From assembly GCA_947626435.1 (NCBI GenBank), contig CANQSB010000005.1, forward strand, positions 1 to 64,000: a stretch of DNA of 64,000 nt, read 5' to 3'. This document shows, in pieces, positions 2,223 through 62,222 of this stretch (within the stretch, counting starts at the first letter, position 1; each line of letters opens with the position of its first letter). A program made the translations under genes and the position numbers. The stretch comes from an uncultured Lachnospiraceae bacterium (GTDB lineage Bacteria; Bacillota; Clostridia; Lachnospirales; Lachnospiraceae). The notes under the pieces were generated by a model that saw nothing but the letters and a program-made list of their open reading frames with translations, searched no databases and had not been told where the DNA came from.

Positions 2223-3923
2223 TCAATTACCAATCAAAACCTCTTTCCCATTAAACGCAAACCCATATTTCCGTATATTCTCATCAGGTATCCCCTTTGC
2301 GAGTAGCGTCTGCTCATACTTTTTATCATTTATCTGCTGCAACGCCGATTTGACGGTGTCCTTTAATGTCTGCTCGTCATCATCGTCATGTACCTTAAAT
2401 TCTATTATAATCGCAACATCACATGCATTTTTGGGTTCAAGCATGATATCATAACGCCCAAAGCCGCTTTCGCGATTGGAAGTGAGCACATAATTTTCCC
2501 TAAGCTCAACTAACAGCCCCAGTACGAAGCCATGGTAAAACCGTTCAGGCTGTGTCTTTGCAGACCCCTTTCTCCCAGTGTCAAAGAAACTGAAAACCTC
2601 ACAAGTGATACGGTTCATATATTCGTTCATAGCCTTAAGCTCACCCTTAAGCAGCGCCTTTATGAAATAATTGTAATCAGAGGCGACAGCGCCAAACCAG
2701 TCCTTAATCATGCCCTCAAACATACAGCGCACCTCAAAATTCGTAAGCGCCAGTTCATAGCGCGGATGCTTCCATTCTTCCAAGCCGATTTCCACGAAGC
2801 CTTCCATATTCAATATTTTCAAATACCCGCATGCGAGCAGGAAACTCCATATGCCGTCCCTTGTGCCGTTAAGGCGGTTGTATACAATCTGCTCGTCAAT
2901 TTCATTTACAACAGGCTTTCCAAGCAGCAGCCCCTTAAAGTCCTCCTTAATTTCAGCCTCAGCCCCCTGTATCAGCTTTGAAACAAGACTGTTTGAGCTG
3001 GTGTTTGCCCAATAGGTATTAAATTTTTGGGTATCAAGATAATTTATTATCGACCAAGGATTATATATGTCGTGCGTGTTTCCAAAGGTAAAACCGTCGT
3101 ACCAGAATTTGACTTTTTCCTTTTTATCAATTCCATATTCGTCCATTGCCGCGAATACTTCGCTTTCAGTAAACCCAAACGCGGCAGCGTATTCATTTGA
3201 AGTGGTAGTTATAACCTTTAGATTGTTCAAATCCGAAAATATTGACTCCTTACTAACTCTGGTTATGCCGGTCATAATGCCGCGCTCAAGCCATTGATTG
3301 GTTTTAAAGGTGGAGTTGAACAGACTTCTGGTAAAAGCGACAAGCTCGTTCCAAAACCCGCCAACATATGCCTCTTGCATAGGCGTATCATACTCATCAA
3401 GCAGGATTATAACATTTTTCTCATAATATCTGTGCAAAAAATCACATAACTGGTTGATTGCAGTGGGCGCGTCAAGCTCCGTCATTTCTCCCGTCATTCT
3501 TTCGTAGTATTCCTTTTCCTGCCTTGACAAAAGCGGGCAGTCAAGAAGAAACCGATTTTGCTCGAAAAGCTTTTTTAGCAGTTCGCATATGCGGTAAACC
3601 GTATTTGGATATGAAACCTCCTTGACATTGGCAAAACTCAGGCTGATAACAGGATAAGTGCCCTGCAGCTCGCGGTATTTCTGCTCATTCCATATGGAAA
3701 GCCCTTCAAACAAATTGCCCCGTCCGGCACATTTTATGGAAAAAAACTTTTCAAGCATACTTATGGTAAGCGTCTTGCCAAAACGCCTCGGGCGTGTGAT
3801 AAGAGTAACGCTGTCGCAGCTCTCCCACCATTCTTTTATGAAAGAAGTCTTATCCACATAAAAGCAGTTGTTTTTGATAATCGTCTCAAAATCCTGAATG
3901 CCGATGCCTACCGTCCGAGCCAT
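2223..3923 (-). CDS. AAA-ATPase-like / PD-(D/E)XK nuclease-like protein
   Basis: This 566-residue protein belongs to the AAA-ATPase-like (PF09820) plus PD-(D/E)XK-like (PF08011) family, common in gut Bacteroidota and Lachnospiraceae and of unproven function. Residues 1-230 hold the ATPase part: the N-terminal GIGIQDFETIIKNNCFYVDK signature, a P-loop variant (RPRRFGKT) near residue 50 and a Walker B-like LDEYDTPM. The C-terminal part has a nuclease-like core, with GFGRYDIMLEP followed by IIIEFKV (D...ExK). The start codon has GGAGG upstream. A close paralogue lies at 18530-20218. The gene is monocistronic, with a palindromic repeat just past its stop. It may be an accessory or defence-type gene, but that is a guess. 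Confidence 0.85.
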   Translation of the reverse strand: MARTVGIGIQDFETIIKNNCFYVDKTSFIKEWWESCDSVTLITRPRRFGKTLTISMLEKFFSIKCAGRGNLFEGLSIWNEQKYRELQGTYPVISLSFANVKEVSYPNTVYRICELLKKLFEQNRFLLDCPLLSRQEKEYYERMTGEMTELDAPTAINQLCDFLHRYYEKNVIILLDEYDTPMQEAYVGGFWNELVAFTRSLFNSTFKTNQWLERGIMTGITRVSKESIFSDLNNLKVITTTSNEYAAAFGFTESEVFAAMDEYGIDKKEKVKFWYDGFTFGNTHDIYNPWSIINYLDTQKFNTYWANTSSNSLVSKLIQGAEAEIKEDFKGLLLGKPVVNEIDEQIVYNRLNGTRDGIWSFLLACGYLKILNMEGFVEIGLEEWKHPRYELALTNFEVRCMFEGMIKDWFGAVASDYNYFIKALLKGELKAMNEYMNRITCEVFSFFDTGRKGSAKTQPERFYHGFVLGLLVELRENYVLTSNRESGFGRYDIMLEPKNACDVAIIIEFKVHDDDDEQTLKDTVKSALQQINDKKYEQTLLAKGIPDENIRKYGFAFNGKEVLIGN

Positions 3924-4048
3924 ATAAGCGCCTCCTTAAATATCTTTTATACACATAGTTTAACACGCTTTACTGCTTATTGCCATTAATATTTGCCATT
4001 ATTTTTAGGTGTTCTTTATTTTCAGTGAAGAAAATATTTCAAAATCTA

Positions 4049-4078
4049 TTTACATCTTATCCCTGCGATTTGTATAAT
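4049..4078 (+). promoter_or_regulatory. Sigma-A-type promoter upstream of the GH27 gene
   Basis: TTTACA (4049-4054) and TATAAT (4073-4078) are separated by 18 bases, about 100 bp upstream of the GH27 start. Confidence 0.5.
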
Positions 4079-4176
4079 AAGCTTATAAGTACAAATATCA
4101 GGGATTTTGTAATACTGCAAGGCGTCGTCGAACTTTTTGCGGCTGCTTAAAAATTTTAGAATGAAGGAGATATAAC

Positions 4177-5472
4177 ATGAAAGCAGAAATGAACAAAAAT
4201 GAATTTGCAAAAACACCGCCAATGGGGTGGAACAGCTATGATTATTATGACACCACAGTGACCGAAGCACAGATAAAGGCAAATGCGGACATTATGGCAA
4301 AAGAGCTGAAAGAATACGGCTGGGAATATATCGTAGTCGATATTGAATGGTATGCGAATAACGCAGGCTCTATGCGCGATAAATTTCAGTATATCCCGTT
4401 TGGCGATTTGGAGATGGACGAGTATTCGCGGCTGCAGCCAAGCCCGAAAAGATTTCCGTCCTCAGCGGGCGGTAAGGGCTTTAAGCCATTGGCGGATTAT
4501 ATACACAGCTTGGGGCTTAAATTTGGCATACATATAATGAGAGGAATACCCCGCTGTGCCGCGGAAGCGCATTCAAAGGTTCTTGGTACGGATATTACCG
4601 CCGATATGATAGCGGATCCCTCATCAATCTGCGGCTGGAATCCGGACATGTACGGCGTGCGCAATACTCCGGCAGGTCAGGCGTATTACGATTCGGTTAT
4701 TCAGATGTATGCCGACTGGGGTGTTGATTTCATCAAGTGCGATGACATATGCGACAGTTGGATGTACCCAAGCGACAGATTTTCAGGCTGGCACGAAACA
4801 CAAATGCTGCACAAGGCAATATTAAAGGCAGGCAGACCGATAGTGCTCAGTCTTTCGCCCGGTCCGGCTCACATAGACAGGGCATGGCAATACTGTGAAA
4901 ATGCCAACATGTGGCGCATAACGGATGACTTCTGGGACAATTGGGAGCTTTTGAAAAATATGTTTTGGCGCTGTGAGCAGTGGCAGGATCATGTAAGGCA
5001 GGGGTGCTTTCCTGACTGCGACATGCTTCCGCTGGGCAGGCTTGGCGGAGGCTTTGGCAATGGAGAATGGGAATGTCGGCTTACACATGATGAGCAGATG
5101 ACAATGCTGTCACTTTGGTGTATGTTCCGCTCTCCCCTTATGCTGGGTGCGGAGCTTACAAAGCTTGATGACAGGACGCGTTCTCTCATCACAAACAGGG
5201 AGCTTTTGAAGCTGCTAGGCGATGGCAGCCATGGCACGCAGCTATTTAGAAACGATGAAATGGCAGTGTGGAAAAATGAAAATAATAAGACGAAAGAGGT
5301 GCAGGTTGCGCTTTTCAACCTGAGTGACGATGACCGGACACTTGAATGGAGGCTTGACCGCGATTGCCAATTGTACGATATATGGAGCGGTGAAAAGAGC
5401 ATGACGAGCGGAGGCATAATAACCGCCGCCGTACCATCTCATGGCGTCAGACATTACAGGCTTGAGCCGTAA
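4177..5472 (+). CDS. GH27 alpha-galactosidase (cytoplasmic)
   Basis: This 431-residue glycoside hydrolase of family 27 is probably an alpha-galactosidase that removes alpha-linked galactose from oligosaccharides; some relatives are beta-L-arabinopyranosidases, and the sequence does not decide this. It opens with the family signature TPPMGWNSYD (13-22) and VVDIEWY near residue 55. The predicted nucleophile is D189 in FIKCDDICD, and the acid/base is about D250 in WRITDDFW. A (beta/alpha)8 barrel is followed by a C-terminal beta domain. There is no signal peptide, so the substrate must be imported. The start follows GAAGGAGAT. It stands alone with its own promoter, with no transporter beside it. 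Confidence 0.9.
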   Translation: MKAEMNKNEFAKTPPMGWNSYDYYDTTVTEAQIKANADIMAKELKEYGWEYIVVDIEWYANNAGSMRDKFQYIPFGDLEMDEYSRLQPSPKRFPSSAGGKGFKPLADYIHSLGLKFGIHIMRGIPRCAAEAHSKVLGTDITADMIADPSSICGWNPDMYGVRNTPAGQAYYDSVIQMYADWGVDFIKCDDICDSWMYPSDRFSGWHETQMLHKAILKAGRPIVLSLSPGPAHIDRAWQYCENANMWRITDDFWDNWELLKNMFWRCEQWQDHVRQGCFPDCDMLPLGRLGGGFGNGEWECRLTHDEQMTMLSLWCMFRSPLMLGAELTKLDDRTRSLITNRELLKLLGDGSHGTQLFRNDEMAVWKNENNKTKEVQVALFNLSDDDRTLEWRLDRDCQLYDIWSGEKSMTSGGIITAAVPSHGVRHYRLEP

Positions 5473-5512
5473 TTGGGAGCAATAATTGGGCTTTAATATA
5501 CGCAAATAACAG

Positions 5513-5541
5513 TTGAAAATTCCAAATTGATTGAGTATAAT
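5513..5541 (+). promoter_or_regulatory. Sigma-A-type promoter of the chemoreceptor gene
   Basis: TTGAAA (5513-5518) and a perfect TATAAT (5536-5541) are 17 bases apart, 48 bp upstream of the chemoreceptor start. No sigma-28 motif is evident here. Confidence 0.65.
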
Positions 5542-5589
5542 TAAAATGTCCGCCGACATGGTGGAAAAATGTAAAAGGAGGGAAGTCCC

Positions 5590-6936
5590 ATGGAGAACAA
5601 GACTTTTAAAAAAGTATCAATCATATTCAAAATCACTGCCATTATGTTTATAGTATTGGCAATAGCATTTGTGCTGAATGATTTTTTGGCATGCAAGCTG
5701 ATAGAGGCAAACATGGCAAAGGATATGAATATTTCTGTGGATGAGGCAGCCGCGGCAGTAAGACGGCTGATAGGAGTGTTCACACTGATAAGCTTTTTGA
5801 TTGGCGTGATAGCGCTCGTAATACTTTCCGCAATTCTTCAAAAGCTGCTTATAATACCATTGAAAAATGCGGTTACGGAGATACATAGAGTGGCAAGATA
5901 TGACCTCACCGAAGGAAATATGGCTGCCGTAAGGGTAAACACTACGCGTACCGATGAGGTGGGCAGCATCTGCAGGAACATAGTCCTTATGCAGGACAAT
6001 CTAAAGGAGATAGTAGAGCAGATAAAGGGTTCTTCCAGCGTGCTTCTCGAAAGCGTAGGTACACTTTCAGACAGGACGGGGCAGGTCAAGAATTCTTCCG
6101 ACGAGATAAGCAATACAATGAACGAACTCAGTCGCGGCGCGATGATGCAGGCGGAGGAAACATCGAGAGGCGCGCAGGAGGTTGCCACGCTTGACGGGCT
6201 TATAGTAAGAAACCTCGACGACACCAAAAATCTCCATAAGAATGCGGAGGAGATGGATAGGGTCAAAAATGACGGACTTGTCACAATACGCGACCTCATA
6301 GAAAAGACTGCAAAGAGCCGCGAGAGCATATCGGTTGTCAAGGAAGCAATGGAGCAGAACAGCGAACAGGCGCACAAGATAGAACTCACGAGCCAAAAGA
6401 TTAACGATATCGCCGACCAGACGAATCTCCTGTCGCTCAACGCGGCAATCGAGGCGGCGCGCGCAGGCGAAGCGGGACGCGGCTTTGCGGTAGTGGCAGA
6501 GGAGATAAGGGGACTGGCGGAGGAGACAAACACCCTTACAAACGAGATAGGCGGCATTATACAGGAGCTTCTTGAAAAGACGGACGATGCGGCAAAAAAT
6601 ATGGAAAATATGGCTCAAATCTTTGAGCAGCAGGAAAAGAGCGTAAGCGAGACGCGTGAGAAGTTCATCCAGATAGAGCAGTGCCTCGGCAGCGTCAAGG
6701 ACAGCGCGGATATGCTTTATGAGTCAAGCAACAATATGATGTCAAGCAAAAATGTCATTGTGTCAATGATAGAGGGCGTGTCAGCGGCAAGCGAGGAGAA
6801 CGCGGCAGGCACGCAGGAGGTGCTTGCCGCAGTAGATTCACAGGGCGGCGTAATCGCGGATTTGGCGGGCATGAGTAAAGAGCTTACCCAAGTAGCCGAG
6901 GGATTAAACGAGCAGGCGCACAAATTCAAATATTAA
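5590..6936 (+). CDS. Methyl-accepting chemotaxis protein without a periplasmic sensor
   Basis: This 448-residue transducer has two transmembrane helices near residues 8-35 and 62-92. They are separated by only about 25 residues, so there is no extracellular ligand-binding domain. A HAMP-like linker (about 92-145) follows, then a full MCP signalling domain. The highly conserved hairpin tip that binds CheA/CheW is present ([20 protein letters not shown], about 280-300). It likely senses membrane or cytoplasmic state, or works with another receptor. The ribosome site AAAGGAGG lies 8 bases upstream. It converges with a c-di-GMP gene across a shared terminator. Confidence 0.93.
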
Positions 6937-6951
6937 AAGCGAACCCAAAAT

Positions 6952-6990
6952 AAAAATCCTCTTTGAGATTTTCTCTCAGAGAGGATTTTT
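6952..6990. terminator. Bidirectional terminator between convergent genes
   Basis: A 17-bp stem (6952-6968 with 6974-6990, one G-U pair) carries an A-run on the left and a T-run on the right. It can end both the chemoreceptor transcript and the opposing PAS-GGDEF-EAL transcript. Confidence 0.85.
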
Positions 6991-6995
6991 TATTT

Positions 6996-8672
6996 TCAGC
7001 CTGTCTTGTCAATGACAAATAAGTTCATAAATTCGTCAAACGGGCAGGGGCGTCCAAAGTAGTAGCCTTGGCAGTAATCGGGCTTTAGCTGCTTGATGCG
7101 CTCCAGCTCCTGCTGCGTCTCCACGCCCTCCACGCATACGCGCAGCTTCATTTTGTGCGCCATATTTATCATAAGCTGCAAAAGGTTGAACTCATAATCG
7201 TTTTCGATTGCCTTTATCGTAAAGCTGCGGTCGATTTTTATGATGTCGGGCTTCAAATCATTGAAATAATGAAAATTTGAATACCCTGTGCCAAAGTCGT
7301 CGAGCGCGAGGCTGATGTGCTGTTCCTTCATGCGCGAGCGCAGCTTGGCGACGCGACTGTCCGGCGTGAGCACGCCGCTCTCGGTAAGCTCGATGATGAC
7401 CGTTGATGGTATGATATTGTAGTCTGATACGGCGGTAAGTATCTCCGAGATAATATTGCTCTTCAATACCTGAATGTATGAGATATTTATGCTGATTTTG
7501 AAATCGGGGTTGACCTTATGTATCTCGGTGCACAGCTCGAGCGACTTGTGCAGCATCCACTTGCCGACGGGTATTATCAGGCATGTCTCCTCCAAAAGCG
7601 GTATAAACACATTTGGCGAAACAGTGCCAAATTCTTCGGTATGGAAACGCATAAGCGATTCCGCGCCGTAAAGCTCTCCCGTATCCGCGCTGAAAAGCGG
7701 CTGCAGATACGCTTCAAAGCCCTCAAAATCGTTGTTGACCGCTTTTCTCAAAAGCTGTATCATCCGCCTGCTTTTCAAAAATTTTTCATAGGCGGGATAG
7801 TTGAATATCCAGCATCGGTTTTTGCCGCCGCGCTTTGCCTCGCTCAGCGCGAACTCGGAAAACTTCATTACATCACTGAAAGTACAGCCTCTGTACGCGT
7901 CGCTCGTAAGTATGCCGCCTGAAATTGTAAATACGGCTTCATAGCGCGATTTTTCGACAAGCTTGTCTATGGAATATCTGATATTCACATATTGTTCAAG
8001 CGCTTCCTCCACATTGCGGTTTGCAAAGTCAATCACAAGGAACTCGTCCGCCATGGCGCGGTAGAGCCTCTGGTCGGGATAGAGGCAATTTGCGATATTG
8101 TCGGCTGTCTTTTTGAGCAGCATGTCGCCGTATTCGATGCCGAGCCGTTCATTTATAGGCTTAAAATCATCGATGCCAAGCCGCAGTATATATCCGCTGT
8201 TCATCATATAGAAGTTTTCTTCAAAATACGCTTTCAGGCTGGAAAGCCCGAGCAGTCCGCTTATGTTGTCCGCCATTTGGCGCGTGCCGATTTCGTTTAT
8301 GCAGCCTATCATATAGAGCGCCTTGCCGTTGTCGCTTACCACGAAGCCGCGACAGTTTATCCATATCGGCTTCTTGTCCTTTGACAGCCAGCGGTACTGG
8401 AGATTGTGAAATTCCTTTTTTCCCTGCGTAATCATGTCCAAATCCTTCTTAAGTTCCGCTATGTCATCAGGATGTACAAAAAGCTCATGGTTTTTGACGA
8501 CATCGTTAAATTCCGAAGCAGGCAGCGCAAAACGCTGTGCGGCGGATGGGGAAATATAATAGTAGTCATTTTGCAGGTCATACACATAGACATAGTCGTC
8601 CATGCAGGGGTGAAGCATATCAATCACATCACATATCTGTTTGACTGAAATGTCTTTATACTTGTCCGACAA
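6996..8672 (-). CDS. PAS-GGDEF-EAL protein, probable c-di-GMP phosphodiesterase
   Basis: This 558-residue protein has a PAS-like sensor (about 15-130), a GGDEF domain (about 140-300) and an EAL domain (about 310-550). The cyclase signature is degenerate: RAMADEF stands where RxGGDEF is expected, so cyclase activity is unlikely. The EAL domain keeps its key positions: GAESLMRF (the ExLxR motif), NISYIQV, IELTES, LDDFGTGYS, KIDRSF, VEGVET and QGYYFGRP. It therefore probably hydrolyses c-di-GMP, a signal that switches between motility and attachment. There is no membrane segment or signal peptide. GGAGG precedes the start. It is convergent to the chemoreceptor gene. Confidence 0.9.
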   Translation of the reverse strand: MSDKYKDISVKQICDVIDMLHPCMDDYVYVYDLQNDYYYISPSAAQRFALPASEFNDVVKNHELFVHPDDIAELKKDLDMITQGKKEFHNLQYRWLSKDKKPIWINCRGFVVSDNGKALYMIGCINEIGTRQMADNISGLLGLSSLKAYFEENFYMMNSGYILRLGIDDFKPINERLGIEYGDMLLKKTADNIANCLYPDQRLYRAMADEFLVIDFANRNVEEALEQYVNIRYSIDKLVEKSRYEAVFTISGGILTSDAYRGCTFSDVMKFSEFALSEAKRGGKNRCWIFNYPAYEKFLKSRRMIQLLRKAVNNDFEGFEAYLQPLFSADTGELYGAESLMRFHTEEFGTVSPNVFIPLLEETCLIIPVGKWMLHKSLELCTEIHKVNPDFKISINISYIQVLKSNIISEILTAVSDYNIIPSTVIIELTESGVLTPDSRVAKLRSRMKEQHISLALDDFGTGYSNFHYFNDLKPDIIKIDRSFTIKAIENDYEFNLLQLMINMAHKMKLRVCVEGVETQQELERIKQLKPDYCQGYYFGRPCPFDEFMNLFVIDKTG

Positions 8673-28449: not shown

Positions 28450-29040
28450 ATGAAGAAAAAATTTATTTTGGCATTTACAGTGATGGCAGTGATGGCGGCT
28501 GTGCTTACGGGCTGTTCGGGAAGTGAACGCAGCTCTGACGAGGTTGAGACACAGCAGGGTATGGACGCTTCGGGAATGGTGCATTTGGAGGGACTTGATG
28601 AGGTTTCGGCACTTTTTGACGAGGTGTATGGGGGAGCGGCGCAGGATCTGCTCCCCGCCAATCTTGAGACATCGGAGCTTGACCTTGCGGACGCGGATAC
28701 GGTTTCATATCATACGGGGCTTGATGACTTGAGCGGTATTGAGAGTATTTATATATCGGAGTCTATGATGAGCTCGGTTGCATACAGTGCAATGTACATC
28801 AGAACTAATGACGAGGCGGACGCGCAGCAGATACTTGATGCGCTTATGGAAAAGGTGAATCCCGCTAAATGGATTTGTGTGACGGCTGAAAAGGAGATTG
28901 GCGCTGTGTTTGGAAACGATGTGTTCTTTGTGATGGGTGCGGCTGACGCAGCTGACGATGTATTTTCAAACGCGTCTAAGGCGGCTGAAAGCAGAGGCAT
29001 GGCTGTTTCTGATAGTGTTGAAAAGGTAAATCCGTTATGA
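28450..29040 (+). CDS. DUF4358-type lipoprotein
   Basis: A 196-residue secreted lipoprotein: a hydrophobic signal peptide (FILAFTVMAVMAAVL) ends in the lipobox LTGC with the lipidated Cys at about residue 22. The mature part is acidic, with a central ESIYISESMMSSVAYSAMYI stretch and an ADAQQILDALMEKV helix, fitting the DUF4358 family. The gene overlaps the MBOAT acyltransferase gene by four bases (ATGA), so the two are translationally coupled. DUF4358 genes often accompany MBOAT and DHHW genes, which suggests a role in acylation of a surface polymer; that role is an inference. AAAGGAGGG precedes the start. Confidence 0.8.
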   Translation: MKKKFILAFTVMAVMAAVLTGCSGSERSSDEVETQQGMDASGMVHLEGLDEVSALFDEVYGGAAQDLLPANLETSELDLADADTVSYHTGLDDLSGIESIYISESMMSSVAYSAMYIRTNDEADAQQILDALMEKVNPAKWICVTAEKEIGAVFGNDVFFVMGAADAADDVFSNASKAAESRGMAVSDSVEKVNPL

Positions 29041-30428
29041 TTTTTTCGAGCATAGTTTTTTTGTATTTTTTTCTGCCCTTTGTCCTGCTTTTGAATTTTA
29101 TCGTGCGGGGGAAGGGCAGAAATTTATTTTTATTCGTGGTGTCTGTGCTGTTTTATGCGTGGGGCGAGCCTAAGTTTGTTTTCCTTATGCTGGCGGAGAT
29201 TGTTTTCTGTTTTTTTATGACGGGGCTAAAGGGTAAGGTTTTTTATGCCCTTTCTGTTATTGTGCCGTTTGGGCTTTTGTTTTTCTTTAAGTTTTCCAGT
29301 AAATTTCCGATTGGGATTTCGTTTTATACTTTTCAGCTTGTGAGCTATTGTATAGATGTACATAGGGGGCGTGTGGAGAGGCAGAAAAATTTGATTACGC
29401 TTGCCGCGTATGTCACTTTGTTTCCGCAGCTTGTGGCGGGGCCTATTGTCAGGTACAGTGATGTTGAGGTGGCGCTTGTCGGTGGCGGCGGGAAGAAAAG
29501 TGACAGTGGTGTCAGTTTTGAATATGGGGTTATGCGGTTTGTGATGGGGCTTGGGAAGAAGGTTTTGCTGGCGAATGTGCTTGGAGAGTTTGTGTCGGAG
29601 GTGTCGGGGCTTTCGGGCAGGGGGCTTTTGGCGTCGTGGTGCTATGCGGTGGCTGTGGCGCTGCAGATATATTTTGACTTTTCGGGGTATTCGGATATGG
29701 CTATCGGGCTTGGGGCGATGCTTGGGTTTAAGTTTCCTGAGAATTTCAGGTATCCGTTTATTTCGGGGAGTATTGGGGAGTTTTGGAGAAGGTGGCATAT
29801 TACGCTGGGGGCGTGGTTTAGGGATTATGTATATATTCCGATGGGCGGGAGTCGCGTCGGGTTTATGAGGTGGATTTTTAATGTTTTGGTGGTGTGGGCG
29901 TTTACCGGGTTATGGCATGGGGCGGAGTGGAATTTTGTGTTGTGGGGGTTGATGTTTGCGGGGCTTTTGGTGTTTGAGAAGATGGTGAGGCGGACTTGGG
30001 AAAGGATGGGTGGCGGTTTTGGGAATGGCGTGGTAGCGGTTGGGGGTTCGGTTGTGAGGCATGTTTATGTGTTGTGGTTTGTGTTGGTGAGTTTTTTGGT
30101 TTTTCATAATACGGATTTGGGGAGGGCGGTTTTGGATATTGCGAGTCTGGTGAATTGTGGCGGGTTGGTTACGGAGGATGCCAATGTGTTGATGGTGTCG
30201 GAGTTTATGGTGAGGAATAGGTGGGTGGTGTTGGCTGTGGGGATTGTGGCGGCTACGCCGGTGCCTGCGATGGTGTGGAAGCGGTTTTGTGGGTGGATTT
30301 TGAGGTATAAGTATGGGAAGGGGGTTTTGCAGGTGGTTGAGGGGCTGGGTGTGGTGATGATTTTGGGGATTTGTACGGCTTATATTATTGATGGGTCGTT
30401 TAATCCGTTTTTGTATTTTCGGTTTTGA
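29037..30428 (+). CDS. MBOAT family O-acyltransferase
   Basis: This 463-residue polytopic membrane protein is of the AlgI/DltB-like MBOAT family and transfers acyl groups onto an extracellular polysaccharide or teichoic acid. It begins MIFSSIVFLYFFLPFVLLLN and has the core IYFDFSGYSDMAIGLG, FWRRWHITLGAWFRDYVYIP and the catalytic-His segment FTGLWHGAEWNFVLWG. About 9-11 membrane helices are evident. Length is slightly short of AlgI-type homologues (about 470-500). The coding strand from about 29440 onward is unusually rich in G and T with few C bases. Its usual DHHW/AlgX-like partner is not adjacent; one lies at 52436. Confidence 0.92.
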   Translation: MIFSSIVFLYFFLPFVLLLNFIVRGKGRNLFLFVVSVLFYAWGEPKFVFLMLAEIVFCFFMTGLKGKVFYALSVIVPFGLLFFFKFSSKFPIGISFYTFQLVSYCIDVHRGRVERQKNLITLAAYVTLFPQLVAGPIVRYSDVEVALVGGGGKKSDSGVSFEYGVMRFVMGLGKKVLLANVLGEFVSEVSGLSGRGLLASWCYAVAVALQIYFDFSGYSDMAIGLGAMLGFKFPENFRYPFISGSIGEFWRRWHITLGAWFRDYVYIPMGGSRVGFMRWIFNVLVVWAFTGLWHGAEWNFVLWGLMFAGLLVFEKMVRRTWERMGGGFGNGVVAVGGSVVRHVYVLWFVLVSFLVFHNTDLGRAVLDIASLVNCGGLVTEDANVLMVSEFMVRNRWVVLAVGIVAATPVPAMVWKRFCGWILRYKYGKGVLQVVEGLGVVMILGICTAYIIDGSFNPFLYFRF

Positions 30429-30452: not shown

Positions 30453-30680
30453 GAAGTCAGCCGGCTATGTCCGCGCGCGTGCGGTGGCGCGAATGGCGGA
30501 TTTTCTAATGTAATGCTTGTAGGTGTTTTCGGGCGGCGAGGAACGGCGCAAGTCGCCTTCCATGGCTCCATGCGCCTCAATTTGCCGTCCGGGCAAATTG
30601 TCCTCTGGGTGTTCTTGCATTACATAAGAAAATATGCCATTCGCGCCAAGGCACTTGCGCGGACATAGCCGGCTGACTTC
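30453..30680 (+). repeat. Structured inverted-repeat element, family 2, copy A
   Basis: This 228-bp element has perfect 24-bp outer arms (30453-30476 and 30657-30680) that continue inward to about 60 bp of paired arm. The core holds three further helices: GAGGA/TCCTC (30538-30542, 30601-30605), GGCGCA/TGCGCC (30545-30550, 30571-30576) around an invariant AGTCGCCTTCCATGGCTCC loop, and CAATTTGCC/GGCAAATTG (30578-30586, 30592-30600). Copies B (60369) and C (60826) share the core but have different outer arms. It lies 24 bp after the MBOAT stop. The rest of the 30429-30854 gap holds only the next gene's promoter. Confidence 0.85.
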
Positions 30681-30805
30681 TTGGTTTTTGGCGGGGACTG
30701 GGGGATGCGTTTGTTTTGGCGGAATGTTTGAGTTTTTATTGTGAAATGAGTCGTTAAAGCGGGATGAGGGGCTTGCTATTTTTTGCTTGTTAGTTATAAT
30801 TATAT

Positions 30806-30854: not shown

Positions 30855-31421
30855 ATGAGAAAGAAATTGAATATTACGGAGGGCATTTTTCCTATGCCAG
30901 TGTTGATGATTGCTACTTACAATGAAGATGGGAGTGTGAATGTCATGAATGCCGCGTGGGGTACAATGCAGGAGCGTGACACTGTGGTTCTCAACCTTAC
31001 GGAAACTCACAAGACGGTCGAAAATATAAAGGCACGAGGCGCGTTTACGGTGAGTATTGCCGATGCGGCGCATGTGACGGAGGCAGACTATTTTGGCATC
31101 GCGTCAGGCAACAAGGTCGCAAACAAGCTTGAAAAGGCAGGTCTTACCGCGGTCAGGGCTGAAAGCGTGGACGCGCCTGTTATCAATGAATTTCCGCTTT
31201 GCCTTGAATGTAAATTTATCGAATACCAAAATAACGAATACGGCTGCGGTGTTATCGGCAAGGTCGTGAATGTTACTGCTGACGAGAGTGTTATGCCTGA
31301 CGGAAAGCTTGACATGTCGCTTGTAAATGCCATTGCCTTTGACCCGTATACACATGGATATTACAAGGTGTCGGAGCGTGTCGGCGAAGCATTTCACGAC
31401 GGGACAAAGCTAAATGGATAA
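30855..31421 (+). CDS. Flavin reductase-like / FMN-binding split-barrel protein
   Basis: This 188-residue protein has the flavin reductase-like split-barrel fold. It begins with a short strand, then PMPVLMIATYNEDGSVNVMN, AAWGTMQERDTVVLNL, NIKARGAFTVSIAD and a C-terminal DPYTHGYYKVSERVG. Such proteins bind FMN and act as NAD(P)H:flavin reductases or as redox scavengers; the partner is unknown here. AAAAGGGG lies upstream. It is followed closely by a DNA-repair gene (33 bp), with which it may be cotranscribed. Confidence 0.85.
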   Translation: MRKKLNITEGIFPMPVLMIATYNEDGSVNVMNAAWGTMQERDTVVLNLTETHKTVENIKARGAFTVSIADAAHVTEADYFGIASGNKVANKLEKAGLTAVRAESVDAPVINEFPLCLECKFIEYQNNEYGCGVIGKVVNVTADESVMPDGKLDMSLVNAIAFDPYTHGYYKVSERVGEAFHDGTKLNG

Positions 31422-49200: not shown

Positions 49201-50667
49201 ATGAATAAAAAGATTATAATGGCGTGTCTGATAGCGGGCGTGCTGCTTGGCGGCTGCGGGCATGGCGAAAAGGATTTTTCAAAGCTTACTACCGCGAAGG
49301 AGCAGGAGGAGGCGTACACGTACAACCGTTTTTTCCTGCCTGCCGTTGATGGCACAAGCCAGCCCTATGTGGGAGACACGATGCCTTATTACGAGGACGG
49401 CGTCTACTATATTTATTACCTAAAGGATCAGGGCGATTCCTACCACCATTCGGCATACCTTGCGACGACAGAGGATTTTGTGGCATACAAGGAATACGAC
49501 GACCCCATAATCGAAGCGTCGCCCGACGGGGGACAGGACGACTGGATCGGGACAGGTTCGGTGGTAAAGACTGGGGAAACATATTATTTTTTCTATACAG
49601 GGCACACTGATTCGGGAGAATACAAGGAAAAGATAATGGCGGCAAAGGGGGACAGCCCGTACAGCTTTGAAAAGATAGACGGTTGGGAAATCGCGCCTCC
49701 CGATGAGCTTGGACAGAAAAATGATTTCCGCGATTCGCAGGCGTACTATAATCCTGAAAGCGACGCGATTGAGATGACGGTCACAGCGTCAAAAGACGGC
49801 ACGGCAAGAATACTGAAATATACGCTCAGCGCAGACCTGCAGACTGTTTCATATGACGGGATTATATTTACAAATACGCAGGGGGATTTCTGGAATCTGG
49901 AGTGCAGCGATACCTTCCGCATGGGCGATACATGGTACATAACATATTCGGCGCAGGACGATACTCTGTGGTATGCCTCATCTGATACGCCGTATGGACC
50001 TTACGGCGAGGCAAAGCGGATGGACGGCAAGCTGTTTTATGCGGCAAAGCACGTTGAAGACGGCGAAAACGCTTATATGGCGGGCTGGGCGAGAAGGTCG
50101 GAGTCAGTAAGCTCCAACACAAGCGTTTCGGCTTGGGCAGGAAATCTTGTCGTACAGAAAATAGTCCAGAAGGACAACAAAGAGCTTACGCTTGCGCCTG
50201 TCGATAATGTAGCCGCGGATTTTTCAAAGCCCCAGAAGCTTGATTTTGAGGAAACTGACATTGCGGCGGATAATGCTTCAGGGTTCAAATATATTGACGC
50301 ATTTAACTGTTACGAAAGCTTTATGATTACAGGGGAATTTCAGTATGAGGGAGAGGGCGCTTTTGGCTTAAGCTTTGATTACAACGGTGAAACGGAAAAG
50401 AACAAGCTGATATCCATATCGCCCGCCGAAAACAAGCTGCAGCTGCTTTTCAACGAGGGAAGGACGCTGATTGCGGAAACGCAGGTGGATTTGAAGCCTA
50501 ATGAAAAGTATAGCTTTACATATATACAGGAGGGCTCAGTAGGCGTCTTTTATATCGACGGCATGGCGGCACTCACAGTCAGGATATACGGCGCGAGCGG
50601 AAAACCAATCAAATTGTTTGCCGAGGACAATTCAGTGAAATTTTCGGCTTTAAAACAGTATAGATGA
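49201..50667 (+). CDS. Surface lipoprotein with GH32-like five-blade propeller
   Basis: This 488-residue secreted lipoprotein (MACLIAGVLLGGC, lipid Cys at about 18) is related to GH32/GH43/GH68 five-bladed propellers. The canonical WMNDPNG is absent; the matching region reads PYVGDTMPYYEDGVYYIYY. DFRDSQAYY replaces RDP and NLECSDTF carries the acid/base-like Glu. The C-terminal domain (about 335-488) looks like the GH32 beta-sandwich. It is probably an extracellular fructan hydrolase or binder feeding the ABC system. The start at 49201 has GGAG 8 bases upstream. It is the last gene of the fructan locus. Confidence 0.75.
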   Translation: MNKKIIMACLIAGVLLGGCGHGEKDFSKLTTAKEQEEAYTYNRFFLPAVDGTSQPYVGDTMPYYEDGVYYIYYLKDQGDSYHHSAYLATTEDFVAYKEYDDPIIEASPDGGQDDWIGTGSVVKTGETYYFFYTGHTDSGEYKEKIMAAKGDSPYSFEKIDGWEIAPPDELGQKNDFRDSQAYYNPESDAIEMTVTASKDGTARILKYTLSADLQTVSYDGIIFTNTQGDFWNLECSDTFRMGDTWYITYSAQDDTLWYASSDTPYGPYGEAKRMDGKLFYAAKHVEDGENAYMAGWARRSESVSSNTSVSAWAGNLVVQKIVQKDNKELTLAPVDNVAADFSKPQKLDFEETDIAADNASGFKYIDAFNCYESFMITGEFQYEGEGAFGLSFDYNGETEKNKLISISPAENKLQLLFNEGRTLIAETQVDLKPNEKYSFTYIQEGSVGVFYIDGMAALTVRIYGASGKPIKLFAEDNSVKFSALKQYR

Positions 50668-50675
50668 AAAGCGCA

Positions 50676-50817
50676 TGTAACAGTTCAGCCTTTTGATTCA
50701 CTGATACGCATGATGCACACAAAATACTCCAAAGCCGCATTTTGACATTTGCGCAACTCGCAAAATCGCGTACAAAGCGATTTTACCAGCAGAATATCAT
50801 CAGGCTGAACTGTTACA
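50676..50817. mobile_element. 142-bp miniature inverted-repeat element
   Basis: Perfect 15-bp terminal inverted repeats (TGTAACAGTTCAGCC, 50676-50690, and its complement at 50803-50817) bracket non-coding sequence that contains an inner hairpin (AAAATCGC/GCGATTTT). The element lies 8 bp after the surface GH32-like gene. The flanks share GCA on both sides, possibly a 3-bp duplication. No transposase is nearby. Confidence 0.65.
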
Positions 50818-59818: not shown

Positions 59819-59926
59819 AATTTTAATTTTCTATTCCATTGTATGGCAAAATATGTTATGATAATGGTGGATTTGGAAAGATTGGACTTTATTTTAATAT
59901 ATTTTAGGGTGAAAGGTGGAGTAGTT

Positions 59927-60289
59927 ATGGCTAAGATTTTGGTGGTTGATGATGCGGCATTCATGCGCATGACTATTAAAAAGATGATTGAGCCGCATGG
60001 TCATACTGTTATTGCTGAAGCTGAAAATGGCGTGGAGGCAGTCAAGAAGTTCAGCGAGTTCAAGCCTGACATAGTGCTGCTTGATATTACCATGCCGGAG
60101 ATGAACGGCGTGGAGGCGTTGAAAAGAATTAAGGAAATTCAGCCGGCTGCAAAGGTTATCATCTGCTCGGCTATGGGGCAGCAGGCTATGGTGGCGCAGA
60201 CTATCCAGTATGGGGCTAAGGATTTTATTGTTAAGCCGTTTGTGGAGGATAGGTTGATTGCGGCGATTGATAAGGTTATGTCTAGGTAG
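59927..60289 (+). CDS. cheY: CheY-like single-domain response regulator
   Basis: This 120-residue receiver domain has the acidic pocket VVDDAAFMR, the phosphorylated Asp in IVLLDITMPEMNG, the switch Thr/Ser position in IICSAMGQQ and the lysine in DFIVKPF. It has no output domain and looks like a CheY, which carries the chemotaxis signal to the flagellar motor. It is away from any che operon, so the assignment to motility is probable, not certain. The start at 59927 is chosen because AGGTGGAG lies 8 bases upstream; the frame is open from 59843. Confidence 0.88.
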   Translation: MAKILVVDDAAFMRMTIKKMIEPHGHTVIAEAENGVEAVKKFSEFKPDIVLLDITMPEMNGVEALKRIKEIQPAAKVIICSAMGQQAMVAQTIQYGAKDFIVKPFVEDRLIAAIDKVMSR

Positions 60290-60368: not shown

Positions 60369-60596
60369 GAAACCGCTTAGATATGTCTGCTGCTCATGCG
60401 AGGCTGTGGGGGCGGATTTTCTAATACAATGAATGTAGGTGTTCTAATGCGGACGAGGTCGGCGCTAGTCGCCTTCCATGGCTCCGAGCGCCTCGATTTG
60501 CCGTCCGGGCAAATCGCTCTCTGGGTGTTCGTCATTGTATAAGAAAATCCGCCCCCGCAGCCTAGGCATGCGCAGCAGACATATCTAAGCGGTTTC
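60369..60596 (+). repeat. Structured inverted-repeat element, family 2, copy B
   Basis: A 228-bp element with perfect 25-bp outer arms (60369-60393, 60572-60596) and near-complete pairing further inward. The core holds GGCGCT/AGCGCC (60461-60466, 60487-60492) around the invariant AGTCGCCTTCCATGGCTCC loop, and GATTTGCC/GGCAAATC (60495-60502, 60508-60515). The outer arm sequence is unrelated to copy A, yet the total length is the same. Confidence 0.85.
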
Positions 60597-60825: not shown

Positions 60826-61049
60826 GAAGACGGTCAGCATTGGTGCGGGCGGGCATAGGTGGAAACAGCGTATTTCCTTATACAATGGTAGAACACTAGA
60901 GGTCAATTTGCCCGGACGGCAAATTGAGGCGCTTGGAGCCATGGAAGGCGACTAGCGCCGACCTCGTCCGCATTAGAACACTTATATCCATTGTATTAGG
61001 AAATACGCTGTTTTCGCCTCGTCCGCCCGCACCAATGCTGACCGTCTTC
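60826..61049 (-). repeat. Structured inverted-repeat element, family 2, copy C (reversed)
   Basis: A 224-bp element in the opposite orientation, with perfect 25-bp outer arms (60826-60850, 61025-61049). Core helices are GAGGTC/GACCTC (60899-60904, 60960-60965), GGCGCT/AGCGCC (60928-60933, 60954-60959) and AATTTGCC/GGCAAATT (60905-60912, 60918-60925). The conserved loop appears as its complement, GGAGCCATGGAAGGCGACT. Confidence 0.85.
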
Positions 61050-61147: not shown

Positions 61148-61232
61148 AAAAATTCAAACACATACGACACAAAAGACACACTCCGACCCTATATTCAGTC
61201 AAAAAAATAAAACCGCAAAGGTGGTAAAAATT

Positions 61233-62222
61233 TTGGTTTCAATCAGAGATGTAGCAAAGCGGGCAGGAGTTGCCATCTCTACAGTTTCAAAGGTGCTGAA
61301 CCATTATCCAAACGTCAGCGCAGAGACGCGGGAAAAGGTAAATGTGGCAATAGAGGAGCTTGGCTTCGTGCCAAATTCCATAGCGTCAGCCCTGTCCTCA
61401 AAAAAGACAGGACGGCTGGCTCTGGTGCTCGATATGGATAAGCATGCGCAGAGCGTGGACGAAATCCCTATGCAGTACATCGTAGGCGCGATTAATAAGG
61501 CAAAGGAGCTGGGGCTCGACATAATCACGGTATTTTTCACCATGATACAGGAAATGAGCGTTGATGAGATGATACGCTATTTCCAGTCGCAGAGCATAGA
61601 AGGGCTGATAATATGCGGGCTGTCCAAGCATGACAAAGCAATTTATAAGCTCGTCAAAAGTGGCAAATTCAAGTCAGTGCTTATAGACGCTCCGGGCGTA
61701 GACGCAAATACGTCAAGTATCCATATCGACAACACGAAAGCGCAGTATGAGGTGGCAAAAAAATTCGTACTTGAAAGCGAAAGCAGAAAAATACTTTACA
61801 TAGCGGGTAAAAAAAACGGCTATGTGTCAGAGGAAAGGCTGAAAGGCATAAGGCAGCTTGCCGATGAGCTCGGGCTTACAATCTTTATAAGGACAGGGAA
61901 TTTCAGCGAGCTCGAGGCAAGGAAGCTCACAATGCAGTACGCCAAAAACAAAGACGCGATAATATGCGCTTCGGACCTGATGGCGATAGGCGCTATGAAG
62001 GCGCTGATAGATATGGACATATACCGCCCAGTATGCGGATTTGACGGAGTGAGCCTTATGGGCTACGCTGGCAAGCAGATGCATACCGTAAAGCAGGATT
62101 TCAGCAGCATAGCCGCGAGCGCGGTCGAGGAGCTTTCAAGGCTTATGGAGGGCGAAAGCGGCAGGGAGATAATAATGCCGCACGAGCTTATCAGGATAAA
62201 GTATCTTGATGTCATATCATAA
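61233..62222 (+). CDS. LacI family regulator, probably of maltodextrin/glycogen use
   Basis: This 329-residue regulator has the N-terminal HTH (VSIRDVAKRAGVAISTVSKV followed by LNHYPNVSAETREKV) and a sensor domain (LALVLDMDKHAQSVDEIPMQ, DAIICASDLMAIGAMKALID). The TTG start at 61233 is preferred since AAAGGTGG lies 8 bases upstream and the protein then begins in the usual VSIRDVA way; a GTG at 61221 lies in the ribosome site itself. It lies between glgX/cheY and the phosphorylase gene, so a role in alpha-glucan metabolism is inferred. Two operator-like palindromes in its own promoter suggest autorepression. Confidence 0.88.
   Translation: MVSIRDVAKRAGVAISTVSKVLNHYPNVSAETREKVNVAIEELGFVPNSIASALSSKKTGRLALVLDMDKHAQSVDEIPMQYIVGAINKAKELGLDIITVFFTMIQEMSVDEMIRYFQSQSIEGLIICGLSKHDKAIYKLVKSGKFKSVLIDAPGVDANTSSIHIDNTKAQYEVAKKFVLESESRKILYIAGKKNGYVSEERLKGIRQLADELGLTIFIRTGNFSELEARKLTMQYAKNKDAIICASDLMAIGAMKALIDMDIYRPVCGFDGVSLMGYAGKQMHTVKQDFSSIAASAVEELSRLMEGESGREIIMPHELIRIKYLDVIS

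Follow-up and report, generated by a model that had tools for sequence, protein, structure and literature searches.

What is the 228-bp hairpin that lies close behind an acyltransferase gene in this Lachnospiraceae genome: a structured RNA, or a piece of DNA that folds on itself and spreads? The window, that is the whole stretch of 64,000 nucleotides analysed here, holds three such elements (copies A, B and C), and the host genome (G000; 3.7 Mb in 98 contigs) holds 19. Judged from one protein, its nearest named relatives are Lachnospiraceae MAGs named Lapin, a word we take to mean rabbit, and a Roseburia MAG. The first-pass annotation had described the three elements as a new family, possibly of structured non-coding RNA, with a hairpin mobilised in trans or a DNA cruciform as alternatives.

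Identity and fold of the hairpin

The features of the window used below are the following.

30453..30680, minus strand (that of the Rfam model): copy A, whole hairpin element, from the fold and the Rfam match
30453..30476, strand not applicable: copy A outer arm on the low-coordinate side, 24 nt, from the fold; outside the Rfam match
30657..30680, perfect complement of 30453-30476: copy A outer arm on the high-coordinate side, 24 nt, from the fold
30484..30649, minus strand: RF01731 TwoAYGGAY match of copy A, 82.0 bits (cut-off 43)
60369..60596, minus strand: copy B, whole hairpin element, from the sequence; Rfam match 60401-60563, 81.9 bits
60826..61049, plus strand: copy C, whole hairpin element and divergent partner of B; Rfam match 60854-61022, 76.7 bits
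60585..60812: 59-bp tandem array (3.8 units) in the B/C gap, its unit holding part of the element's arm and 5' flank
29037..30428, plus strand: MBOAT acyltransferase gene, whose stop codon lies 24 bp before the start of copy A
30855..31421, plus strand: flavin reductase-like gene, downstream of A
59843..60289, plus strand: response-regulator gene, upstream of B
61221..62222, plus strand: LacI-type regulator gene, downstream of C

Copies A, B and C matched the Rfam family TwoAYGGAY (RF01731) over the full model (positions 1 to 168 of 168) with 76.7-82.0 bits, all above the gathering cut-off of 43 bits (covariance-model score). The claim of a new family thus fails, and copy A is a member of a known one. 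Both hairpins of the family are present in copy A. The loops of the three window copies read CCGGAC and ATGGAA, each one letter off AYGGAY; exact AYGGAY loops occur twice in 10 of the 19 host copies, once in 6 and not at all in 3, which are A, B and C themselves. Across the 19 copies, GGA is nearly invariant in both loops. Our copies run about 30 nt farther than the Rfam model on each side, with an extra paired arm outside it.

Much of the earlier structural description held up. The core 19-mer AGTCGCCTTCCATGGCTCC is present at three sites in the window, one in each copy, and is absent from 100 of 100 shuffles. Copy A folds (-140.1 kcal/mol, z -15.3) into a perfect 24-bp outer stem, further paired stretches and a branched core, which agrees with the self-complementary arms and with the long stem closing a multi-helix junction that had been reported. 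Length is near constant, at about 222-235 bp as judged from match extents, with a stem of 22-24 bp around the branched core. What has to be withdrawn is the statement that the outer arms of different copies are unrelated: they align (for instance GAAGTCAGCCGGCTATGTCCGC in A and GAAACCGCTTAGATATGTCTGC in B), and the outer arms of all 19 host copies proved homologous when aligned. About three subfamilies can be told apart by eye among these copies.

In the passages naming the family, the 2010 discovery table gives TwoAYGGAY as "RNA? y, cis-reg n", a probable RNA that is probably not cis-regulatory (Weinberg 2010, PMC2864571), CsrA binding is proposed (PMC4333381), an improved structure is mentioned (PMC11701678 and PMC7657543) and the family is taken into a stability study (PMC11661157); RF01731 is also named in PMC7682815. 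The published passages naming the family contained no reading of it as mobile DNA, and the matches listed for palindromic repeats of Lachnospiraceae or Roseburia held nothing on point. Rfam files TwoAYGGAY as a Cis-reg RNA, whereas the evidence presented here leans to mobile DNA.

Paired changes and wobble pairs

The paired changes seen in the first three copies extend to all 19 copies of the genome. With the full structure laid on their alignment, 97.1% of the cells were paired (compare with 71.9% after shuffling and 34-41% when the structure was slid), 47 of the 60 pairs had changed in both partners, and double-changed cells numbered 297 against 87.9 in shuffles. All 22 outer-arm pairs showed at least two Watson-Crick types. 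A structured RNA is expected to have G-U pairs more commonly than A-C mismatches. The 408 outer-arm cells comprised 401 Watson-Crick, 3 A-C, 4 other and no G-U, and the six counted helices together 1082 Watson-Crick, 12 G-U, 13 A-C and 20 other. The covariation is very strong, yet its form is odd for an RNA: every outer-arm pair varies without a single wobble cell.

Among the near copies, read on the Rfam strand, A-C exceeded G-U (57 versus 29 distinct contexts; 210 A-C and 161 G-U when all mismatches are counted), and the near groups gave 16 G-U versus 27 A-C and 30 versus 50. The corresponding G-U excess on the opposite strand failed in 29 loci from 29 distant genomes across the phylum, where stem-embedded mismatches numbered 25 G-U and 22 A-C (12 copies with more G-U, 7 with more A-C). 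Nine tRNAs gave 12 G-U and no A-C and a TPP helix (8 of the 11 predicted pairs, in 19 aligned sequences out of 43 listed matches) gave 22 G-U and no A-C, but both controls favour G-U by construction, because ARAGORN and RNAalifold accept G-U and not A-C.

Orthologous copies of the host and of its relatives G033 and G034 were compared over 1135 pairs (19 comparisons, into which some host copies entered twice). We found 21 double changes that were still paired, 9 of them from one less similar locus (L012/L016 compared with L176), against about two double changes of any kind expected from independent hits by a rough estimate. Single-sided changes were 10 G-U, 18 A-C and 19 other, and the flanks differed at 821 of 8739 positions. 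At the copy A locus, G033 and G034 have a paired arm change in common.

Template switching in DNA replication can make and repair perfect stems, and patterns of this kind have been explained by it in print (PMC8794818). We infer that one arm of the element may be copied from the other during DNA synthesis, by template switching or by hairpin-primed repair; because of such copying, the arms would stay complementary and both sides would change together without wobble steps. A DNA palindrome spreading through genomes would explain the perfectly matching arms. There is also a point on the other side: in mid stem, where pairing is otherwise good, every one of the 19 host copies retains a T-T mismatch (CTTAT opposite ATTAG), and this mismatch and the conserved loop letters call for sequence-specific recognition, which counts against a mobile-DNA reading.

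Copy number, sites and orientation

The element is dispersed and multi-copy. Carriers make up 12 of the 38 genomes of the genus, with none among the other 26, and per-genome numbers reach 43 in G010 and at least 54 scored matches in G015, a floor since up to 54 candidates were scored in each genome. When 398 genomes of the phylum were surveyed, with up to six candidates scored in each, 51 matched RF01731 at E 0.001 and 34 were above the cut-off. A link to phages or plasmids is unsupported, copy A having no match at blastn sensitivity among 50,697 phage and 72,556 plasmid records; one exact-pattern scan of viral contigs gave 0 matches.

Filled and empty sites were then compared between relatives. 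Of the 12 loci compared, those of G033 and G034 have copy A; the other 10 lack it within about 560 bp behind the MBOAT gene. What follows MBOAT in the relatives lacking the copy is other sequence, apparently one conserved gene in most of them; in G000, G033 and G034, where copy A stands behind it, the content beyond the copy differs. The gap between the response-regulator and LacI-type genes measures about 100-153 bp and has no element in G010, G015, G019 and G031, "empty" referring here to the B/C gap only, because G015 has another such element one gene away. G034 carries both B and C with about 2 kb of other genes between them, including a PadR-like gene (the gene names are our own reading), and in its gap a different short array adjoins C. 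By parsimony, the simplest reading would be a gain of B and C in the line of G000 and G034. The cleanest empty site found lies elsewhere: G035 lacks the element there, G033 and G034 carry it, and a 7-bp direct repeat (TTGATTT) stands at the joint, a pattern that could equally reflect insertion or deletion. Among the loci compared, one flank or both of 15 of the 19 host copies recur at a copy of G033 or G034, so the host copies are not moving fast. Homology between relatives breaks near the element edges. At 3033-7179 of locus L352 (C3 of the host), two direct TwoAYGGAY copies flank genes for a D12 adenine methyltransferase and an AlwI-type restriction endonuclease; the counterpart in G034 and G033 has one copy and neither gene.

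Orientation was scored with a simple ORF finder. In the host genome, the gene on the Rfam 3' side reads into the copy in 14 of the 17 scorable cases (out of 19 copies), and 11 of these 14 genes end 24-48 bp from the copy. The corresponding figures were 66 of 91 for all scorable copies (the usable ones among 111 collected, with three excluded beforehand and orthologues included) and 17 of 27 for the distant loci (27 of the 29 scored). Placement behind stop codons, as in the 14 of 17, would also suit an RNA role and to that extent counts against mobile DNA.

The pairing of neighbours was tallied on 156 listed copies from 12 genomes (155 of at least 185 places totalled, plus one G034 place that was estimated). 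All 13 pairs of opposite-strand neighbours within 3 kb were divergent and none convergent, about 11 of them independent because orthologous pairs are included (B/C in G000 and G034; C23 of G000 and C15 of G033), and 4 neighbours were on the same strand. Only 26 of the 156 copies sit in divergent pairs, B and C forming one. Composite pairs of two unlike hairpins were found eight times in G015 and once in G011; in the G015 composites L196 and L200, the core of one hairpin has been lost, which leaves only a mini-hairpin made of the outer arms. The motif CGTCC stands at one foot of 13 of the 19 host copies and CAG at the other foot of 10, and these tags seem to lie on opposite sides of the stem. 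Copy A has neither and reads CGCCG and CCAAG.

These features recall the CGTC-tagged REPs. The passages on them in Di Nocera 2013 (PMC3733652) describe multi-copy intergenic palindromes, mostly behind coding regions, that form opposite-orientation dimers of like or unlike units, rarely head-to-tail, have no dedicated or known transposase, and are built from a stem of 8-9 bp, a loop of 4-5 nt and an unpaired CGTC at one end; the string "clostridi" does not occur in the main text of that article. TwoAYGGAY is like them in its dispersal, in its divergent pairs, in its position behind genes, in the CGTCC foot and in lacking a known transposase. The two differ in build: an 8-9 bp stem and 4-5 nt loop in the REPs compare with about 230 bp, a 22-24-bp stem and a branched core here, and copy A, whose stem is too long and whose core is branched, lacks CGTCC as well. 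Because size and core differ, we call the element REP-like and not a REP.

Short transposons and competing explanations

A carrier was found in G015. There, 16 of the 39 element rows have both ends GTAACAGTTCAGCC...GGCTGAACTGTTAC with up to two mismatches each. Of 20 scored, 9 had flanking 8-mers that match at 7-8 of 8 positions, five of them perfectly, against none of 380 mismatched combinations; this scoring left out L195b and L250, whose repeat ends were misplaced, as well as L340, took in L346 with a gap, and counted near misses such as L193 and L201 (matching with a shift or across 7 bp) as misses. Carriage of the hairpin inside a short transposon holds for G015. The same ends bound other palindromes, with perfect duplications in 8 of 18, and end sites number 289 in G015, 28 in G019 and 3 in G000. 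The MITE family seen at L332-L350 has GTAACAGTTCAGCC ends, 8-bp duplications, units from 48 bp up and various palindromes. One 140-bp MITE with perfect GTAACAGTTCAGCC ends lies in the window itself (50677-50816), just behind an open frame ending at 50667; it accounts for two of the three G000 end sites, with no TwoAYGGAY inside and no matching flanking 8-mer.

GTAA ends with an 8-bp duplication are, we take it, the mark of IS66. In G027, a remnant of an IS66 transposase (25.1 bits, cut-off 23.1; flanks without a match) lies between the ends seen in G015, and the G015 carrier is probably of IS66 type, its hairpins lying between GTAA-starting repeats with 8-bp duplications. The G000 copies differ in this respect: neither terminal repeats nor 8-bp target duplications were found at them, nor a transposase. 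What could pass for IS66 ends in L203 and L206 appears to be coding sequence and was not used. The IS66 DDE transposase (PF03050) gave 0 hits in G000 and G015, and among the 12 carriers only G013 and G031 were positive. Mobilisation by a Y1 (RAYT-like) transposase is unsupported, PF01797 being absent from seven of the 12 carriers (G000, G010, G011, G015, G019, G035 and G037) and present at 1-4 copies in G012, G013, G031, G033 and G034, all counts being from drafts that may be incomplete. Seven long GTAAC stretches (six in G015, one in G019) had no open frame recognisable by inspection as a transposase, and no autonomous GTAAC transposon was recognised in them.

We favour, with a probability of about 0.6, the reading of TwoAYGGAY as a mobile REP-like DNA palindrome whose covariation would come from DNA copying. 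On this proposal a hairpin of about 230 bp, built on a conserved two-hairpin core, would spread as DNA with enzymes supplied in trans; it may stand in divergent pairs and is often found shortly after a stop codon. The G015 hairpins travel inside a short transposon with GTAACAGTTCAGCC terminal repeats and 8-bp target duplications; the G000 copies may be mobile by the same or a similar route. The fuller statement denies that TwoAYGGAY is an RNA gene and makes it a mobile DNA hairpin of the whole phylum that covaries through arm-to-arm copying; it is put forward tentatively, at somewhat under even odds. The alternatives of a trans-mobilised hairpin or a DNA cruciform, set second in the first-pass annotation, fit the repeat-like spread, the divergent neighbours, the B/C gap and the G015 MITEs better than its leading interpretation, whose novelty is gone.

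A structured RNA as filed by Rfam, trans-acting or cis-regulatory, for example a CsrA-binding sponge exposing GGA in its two hairpin loops, would account for the strength of the covariation (the 297 double-changed cells), for the near-invariant GGA and for the published and Rfam assignments cited above. We nevertheless consider it unlikely, since the Rfam strand has no G-U excess either in the distant set or in the near groups, some genomes hold 19 to at least 54 copies while most sister species have none, and 14 of the 17 scorable host copies have on their Rfam 3' side a gene read in the opposite direction to the model. Those same 14 genes, 11 of them ending within 24-48 bp, are what recommends an element of the other strand, whose hairpin would terminate or stabilise the transcript of the upstream gene. 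The 24 bp that separate copy A from the MBOAT stop codon and the near-copy surplus of A-C on the Rfam strand, which is G-U on the other, point the same way. This is rather less probable again: the asymmetry is absent from the 29 distant genomes, where the orientation falls to 17 of 27, the foot of A showed nothing like a terminator (the sole candidate, 30758-30777, is no better than shuffles), and REPs also sit behind genes (in the passages of PMC3733652).

Two further explanations invoke DNA and appear far less probable. The hairpin might lack an identity of its own and simply be carried by IS66-derived MITEs, as the G015 copies inside GTAACAGTTCAGCC MITEs with 8-bp duplications and the IS66 remnant with the same ends would have it. 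The 3 repeat sites against 19 copies largely refute this for G000; RF01731 matches are found in 51 of 398 phylum genomes, and many such MITEs carry other palindromes, which makes it very improbable. We give slightly less credit still to a recombination or integration site gathering cargo between copies. The methyltransferase and endonuclease genes between the direct copies of G000, absent from the one-copy site of G034 and G033, the 2 kb with the PadR-like gene between B and C in G034, and the breaks of homology near element edges all suit it, but ordinary homologous recombination between repeats gives the same result. Coming back to the mobile palindrome, it would leave TwoAYGGAY with no essential RNA role.

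What may be new is thus the reading of TwoAYGGAY as a mobile palindrome, the family itself being already known. A strong covariation signal has been read as selection on RNA, and DNA copying may be its cause. In that case a mobile palindrome can pass for a structured RNA on covariation tests alone, and counting G-U against A-C would be a simple way to separate the two, one that could be run on other palindromic RNA candidates. The Rfam cis-regulatory listing and the CsrA-binding lead would be misdirected, the two-hairpin core would be the recognition site of some enzyme, and the Clostridia would gain a REP-like repeat family.
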